Assembly (NCBI RefSeq): GCF_944390845.1
Contig: NZ_CALXRM010000018.1
Location: 1-50,338 of the forward strand
Direction: 5' to 3'
Source: an uncultured Brachyspira sp.
GTDB taxonomy: Bacteria; Spirochaetota; Brachyspiria; Brachyspirales; Brachyspiraceae
DNA length: 50,338 bases
Part shown: one piece after another, positions 36,082-36,364 of the stretch
Layout of the letters: each line of letters begins with the position of its first letter
How positions within the stretch are numbered: position 1 is the stretch's first letter
Position numbers and translations under genes: made by a program
The notes under the pieces: model-generated
Told to the model about the DNA's origin: nothing
The model's input: the letters and a program-made list of their open reading frames with translations, nothing else
The model's database searches: none

Positions 36082-36364
36082 TATACTGAAAATTTTTAAG
36101 TTTGTCAATTTTTTTATTGTTCTTTTTCCCGCCGCAAAAAGAACCAAAAAGTGCAAGTGTGAAATTAGTACTAAATCATACTAATTATGTTTTACATATA
36201 AGATAAACTACTAAATTTAAGCCAAAATGCAGTCTTTTTGCTTCTTTGGGTCACCACCGAGTAGGTGCCTAATCGGCAAAAGAAGTAGGGGTTCGGGGAC
36301 TAGTCCCCGAAAATAATAACAATATAAAAAATAAAATTGACAAAATATAATTGTTTAGGTATAT
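36082..36364 (+). repeat. TATAC-ended modular repeat, copy E
   Basis: Left end TATACTGAAAATTTTTAAG at 36082, right end at 36364. The left stem is GTTCTTTTT/AAAAAGAAC around CCCGCCGC (36119-36144), a perfect 9-bp stem. The shared block ATTAGTACTAAATCATACTA follows. The central stem is CTTCTTT (36241-36247)/AAAGAAG (36279-36285), and then the 20-bp palindrome (36292-36311). It is a clean, simple copy and the best reference for the family. A stray right end (TATAATTGTTTAG, 36068-36080) sits immediately before it, a trace of an earlier copy. Confidence 0.85.

Follow-up and report, generated by a model that had tools for sequence, protein, structure and literature searches.

Repeats of the window and their ends

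The DNA analysed here, called the window throughout, is a stretch of 50,338 nucleotides from an uncultured Brachyspira sp. (contig NZ_CALXRM010000018.1; genome G000), and it carries a set of hairpin-rich repeats that are the subject of this report. Two copies, E (36084..36361, with the ends TACTGAAA...TTTAGGTA) and F (36364..36712), were delimited by matches to the terminal inverted repeats (TIRs) and by unit extraction; they form a tandem pair on the plus strand (36084..36712) joined by a TATATA common to both. A tandem array on the same strand begins with copy G (49574..49940) and continues with H (49943..50254) and with I (50257..50338), which is truncated by the end of the window. Copy A (7530..7850, plus strand) has the same type of interior as H, referred to as H-type, and in a further plus-strand copy (28298..28671) the order of the hairpins is inverted relative to the TIRs. 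Two copies lie on the minus strand, one at 19086..19350, 65 bp downstream of the tmRNA gene, and one at 25365..25709.

These repeats are non-autonomous transposable elements of the type known as miniature inverted-repeat transposable elements (MITEs), small and gene-less, and they form a large family in Brachyspira, a gut spirochaete. The right-end motif had 295 matches with at most two mismatches in the window's genome compared to 17 for the reversed control, and we put the family at ~280 to 295 copies in this genome; at ~300 bp each, they are estimated to make up roughly 2 to 3% of it. The repeat was present in 24 of 26 Brachyspira genomes. Its elements are bounded by TACTGAAAATTTTTAAGTTTGTCA...TGACAAAATATAGTTGTTTAGGTA, and the TIRs are ~24 bp long and imperfect, 15 of 24 positions being identical between the left end (TACTGAAAATTTTTAAGTTTGTCA) and the reverse complement of the right end (TACCTAAACAACTATATTTTGTCA). 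From the fetched stretches, 108 units with both ends could be cut out at the conserved ends; nearly all measured 206 to 464 bp, most of them 240 to 430 bp. TA adjoined the element at 67 to 68 of 69 solitary ends, and tandem copies (E-F and G-H-I) shared one TATATA junction.

Several hairpins in succession make up the interior. The only open reading frames (ORFs) of at least 80 codons on the elements of the window encode 89 and 98 amino acids (49725-49994 and 36491-36787) and run over module repeats; they are too short for a transposase, so that the elements have no coding capacity. An Rfam search of the window returned tmRNA only, with none of the elements matching an RNA family on record. The genome, at 27% GC, contains 167 occurrences of a GC-rich module, GCTCGGATACGCTTCGCG, and none of its reversed control; in the window the module is found at 7621, 28452, 36515, 49746 and 50112, inside elements, in both orientations and at varying positions. 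A MITE subtype with the same ends and a quite different interior (CCCGCAC...GTGCGGCTGATTACT) was seen at four loci (L023, L048, L073 and L095).

An insertion sequence with the same ends

ORFs beside unpaired ends gave no recurrent transposase. A search of the 26 genomes of the genus with DDE_3, the catalytic domain of the IS630 family, gave a single match, in genome G015. This match, in a reading frame that has decayed, is enclosed by the same pair of TIRs (L177:757-1813); part of the frame matched DDE_3 with an E value of 9.4e-8. In the window's genome, the inner right-end motif of the corresponding insertion sequence (IS), TTCATCTGTTTGAAAATTGA, had 20 exact occurrences, which in every case where the extent of the contig was known (e.g., L040:1-76 and L202) lay within ~60 bp of a contig end. 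The left and right ends of the IS, taken from contig ends in this genome, agree with those of the MITEs, and the left end is followed by a start codon and a reading frame resembling that of L177. Genome G024 gave a comparable set, with many of the matches located where contigs begin or end. This is most simply explained by the assembly having broken at ~20 near-identical copies of the IS. As IS copies sit at contig ends, the MITEs and the IS with the same ends probably fragment Brachyspira assemblies.

One IS insertion splits a radical-SAM-like gene (sulfatase-maturase-like) that is whole in relatives, at a TA-rich target. The left flank reads CAGGATA followed by TACTGAAA, the right side TTTAGGTA followed by TATACCGG, and the uninterrupted orthologues read CAGGATATACCGG or CAGGACATACCGG, which would fit a duplication of TA (or TATA). 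At the MITE sites of the window, the flanks in relatives were too diverged or rearranged for a precise empty site. An exception is the site at 25360, where the orthologous locus of genome G022 (L117, corresponding to 25365-25709) holds a 46-nt miniature of two facing left ends (GTATATACTAAAAATTTTTAACTTTGTCATTTTTTTAGTATATAC). Since the ends are shared, the MITEs, with their TIRs flanked by TA, would be of the kind that an IS630-family transposase mobilises, and an IS630 transposase is presumably what moves them. This link to a parent IS makes the mobility of the family testable.

Hairpin 1 and its probable exchange between copies

The preliminary description of this DNA concerned the first hairpin of the repeats, hairpin 1, in copies E, F, G and I. 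It stated that several bases on both arms had changed together with pairing retained, and it attributed this to selection on a structure or to exchange of whole hairpin modules. All four stems could be read directly from the sequence. In E (36119..36144, GTTCTTTTTCCCGCCGCAAAAAGAAC), the arms GTTCTTTTT/AAAAAGAAC form a 9-bp stem of the version GTTC/GAAC with a short loop, one of the two commonest 26-mers of this form (43 of 113 copies). In F (36399..36424, CAACTTTTTCCCGCCGCAAAAAGTTA), the arms CAACTTTTT/AAAAAGTTA form a stem of 8 bp with the outermost C opposite A, i.e., the version CAAC/GTTG with one uncompensated change to CAAC/GTTA. Copies G (49608..49652, GTTCTTT...AAAGAAC) and I (50292..50336, CAACTTT...AAAGTTG) carry GTTC/GAAC and CAAC/GTTG, respectively, with long loops. 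Thus, the joint differences on both arms and the differing loop lengths are as described, and pairing is retained in E, G and I; in F there is the one C-A mispair. These four copies are a selective sample, the best-paired ones of the window. Hairpin 1 is broken in three others, namely A (7579..7605, the founder hybrid CAAC/GTAG), H (49992..50022, CAAC/GTAT) and, on the minus strand, the copy at 25365-25709 (the founder hybrid CTAC/GTTG). The other minus-strand copy (19086-19350) has a shortened hairpin 1.

We then considered 256 distinct copies with hairpin 1 from loci of the window's genome, sampled from ~100 stretches around copies, and of its relatives, where copies had been chosen by similarity to E and F; H-type copies are under-represented. 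In 214 of them both arms came from the same one of three founder versions, GTTC/GAAC, CAAC/GTTG or CTAC/GTAG. Another 22 were founder hybrids, whose left and right arms come from two different founders, with pairing broken, and 20 were other variants, nearly all of them one-sided. Among the 236 copies with founder arms, the 214 matched ones compare to 104 expected under independence of the arms, so the matching is not due to chance. The outer pair of stem 3 showed the same two-state pattern (C-G in 96 and G-C in 53 cases), in a pattern search that also catches hairpin 1 and is therefore considered for its paired counts only.

Such an excess of matched arms is what would be expected if hairpin 1 were maintained by selection as an RNA or DNA structure, for example as a transcribed stem with a regulatory or stabilising role or as a requirement of transposition, with the joint changes being compensatory. 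This explanation could also draw on the folding of E, which is better than that of dinucleotide shuffles (z scores of -4.7 as DNA and -3.1 as RNA), and on the stem TAAC/GTTA, matched on both sides in one H-type copy (L012), with the wobble form TAAC/GTTG occurring elsewhere. Together with L058, in which AAAC/GTTT is matched on both sides and owes its right side to an inserted module (a module junction), L012 is the only candidate for compensation among all copies. We nevertheless regard selection on the structure as quite unlikely, because there are only three founder states and ~9% of the copies with founder arms are mismatched, including one in a genome consisting of a single contig (L228 of G010). 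The 113 copies of the short-loop form comprise 18 distinct sequences, 90 copies being one of two exact 26-mers; every departure in the stem is one-sided or a founder hybrid, and a compensated change was found in 0 of the 113. One-sided changes persist; a hand count gave five in the stem, all on its 4 G/C sites (~1.25 per site), a rate similar to that of the loop with 12 changes on 8 G/C sites (~1.5 per site). When base composition is allowed for, there is thus no indication that pairing has slowed change, although the count is small. Two founder sequences without independent compensatory changes, the pattern that the preliminary description itself had set against its structural reading, are what the short-loop form displays.

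Its other suggestion, the exchange of whole hairpin modules, is borne out by several observations in addition to the three founders. Founder hybrids were enriched among long loops (16 of 22, compared to 74 of 214 founder-matched copies; p = 0.0008), as expected if breakpoints fall in the loop. They also occurred in relatives, and the hybrid in the one-contig genome indicates that they are not merely short-read chimeras. In the E-type short-loop copies, whose allele counts include copies of shared ancestry, r2 between arm sites 21 to 25 nt apart was 0.93 to 0.97, compared to a median of 0.06 among other pairs of sites so spaced. Immediately upstream, the unpaired sites 33 and 34 showed a D' of 1.00 with both arms, through the right arm at site 61, and D' dropped to 0.22 between sites 61 and 74, 13 nt downstream of the right arm. 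This complete linkage, which includes the unpaired sites, and its subsequent collapse indicate that the hairpin and its immediate flank behave as a block.

The most direct evidence for exchange is provided by two copies in different genomes, L207 (G008) and L227 (G018). Their host flanks are 92% identical over 322 nt, and a degenerate left end, TTCGTTAAACTTTTAAGTTTGTCA, is common to both; L207 carries the GTTC hairpin and L227 the CAAC hairpin accompanied by its own flank. Judged by flank and end, the two represent one and the same old insertion, in which the hairpin has been swapped. Plain descent, in which a few founder elements were amplified by transposition with no exchange among copies, would produce three founder stems with fixed flanks. 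The occurrence of founder hybrids argues against it, and an identical old insertion bearing different hairpins in two genomes contradicts it unless it is an assembly artefact. In addition, the hairpin type required 26 changes on a poorly supported tree built from the remainder of the element, compared to 37.6 with shuffled labels (minimum, 29), and is hence only weakly tied to the other parts. We consider plain descent highly improbable. A tree-based test of paired changes offered two contrasts only on supported branches.

Template switching during replication within an imperfect inverted repeat, also known as quasipalindrome correction, can rewrite one arm from the other in the absence of selection. 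According to Monttinen and Loytynoja 2022 (PMC8794818), compensatory changes of several bases in hairpins are known to arise in this way, and such template-switch hairpins resemble ours in that several bases on both arms change in a single event without selection. As described there, however, an arm is copied from its partner, whereas in Brachyspira a whole hairpin with its flank would come from another copy. Template switching could have generated the founder stems in the first place, as well as TAAC/GTTA. It also predicts many new perfect stems, yet what recurs is the same set of three triplets, with which sites 33 and 34, unpaired and beside the stem, also move, and mismatched hybrids remain uncorrected; we judge it to be a very unlikely source of the pattern.

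Very probably, then, the repeats are MITEs with IS630-family ends in which a hairpin cassette existing in three versions has been copied between elements rather than being kept by selection. Complete hairpins, together with a few bases of their flanks, would pass from element to element by gene conversion or recombination; homologous gene conversion is the form of exchange that we infer. Copying of an entire hairpin would usually change both arms together, and an exchange breaking inside the loop would leave a hybrid with a mismatched stem. Several points weigh against this interpretation. A high r2 between the arms would also arise from selection on pairing, and the linkage of sites 33 and 34 is weakened as evidence for a block by their adjoining the arm. 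With respect to transposition, a nucleotide-precise empty site was found only for the IS and for none of the MITEs, and at the precise IS insertion duplications of TA and TATA are indistinguishable. Moreover, no intact transposase gene was read, the gene lying in unassembled repeats in the window's genome and being decayed in G015. As to its wider meaning, strong pairwise covariation of stem arms can stem from whole-hairpin exchange among repeat copies, and covariation tests assuming vertical descent would then call a conserved structure.

Insertion sites, known systems and neighbouring genes

Downstream of queA (36084-36712 in the window; L144, L145, L130 and L146 in relatives), an element was present at the same place in all five genomes compared. 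It was in the forward orientation in G000 and G024 and reversed in G007, G009 and G022. Further reversed pairs were found at orthologous sites (L285/L277 and L014/L164), and several orthologous sites hold elements of differing content or orientation. A new insertion into the TATATA at the end of a resident element and a subsequent deletion would account for these differences, and inversion is another possibility. One might also envisage a system whose chromosomal addresses are stable across species and whose content and orientation change, with perfect hairpin cassettes passing between elements through a recombination process that is dedicated or driven by hairpins instead of ordinary gene conversion, but we consider this unlikely.

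The family was not found described for Brachyspira in the open-access literature and appears to be undescribed so far, though of a known kind. The closest described kind is RUP of pneumococcus, which is linked to IS630-Spn1; like the Brachyspira elements, RUP is non-coding, has IS630-like TIRs and TA-containing targets, and numbers roughly a hundred copies or more (PMC2229807). By this analogy the family can be classed as a RUP-like MITE. RUP, however, measures 107 bp, whereas the Brachyspira element is 240 to 430 bp long and has several hairpins, tandems sharing TATATA and exchangeable interior modules. Correia/NEMIS elements of Neisseria are likewise MITEs, with 24-bp TIRs, TA termini and size variants due to an inserted internal segment (PMC2229807). 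The Brachyspira element differs from these in its sequence, its greater length, its multi-hairpin interior and its candidate parent IS. Copies of BOX in Streptococcus and of BIME in enterobacteria are mosaics of interchangeable small palindromic modules. The Brachyspira elements are likened to these by description, not by REP or BOX sequence, and differ in having TIRs and a candidate IS630 parent. A 2007 review gives the length of bacterial MITEs as under ~200 bp. This limit is exceeded by nearly all of the Brachyspira units. It is a customary rather than a defining one, and eukaryotic MITEs are longer.

Two groups of paralogous genes were also observed in the window. Four successive genes at 42445-44968 encode proteins of ~185 to 195 amino acids; the one that was tested resembles the CD3073 family of energy-coupling factor (ECF) transporter S components, with a score just below the curated cut-off. 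Two adjacent genes at 36837-40695 encode proteins of 627 and 639 amino acids with a metallo-beta-lactamase-like domain, and patches of their DNA are up to 90% identical.
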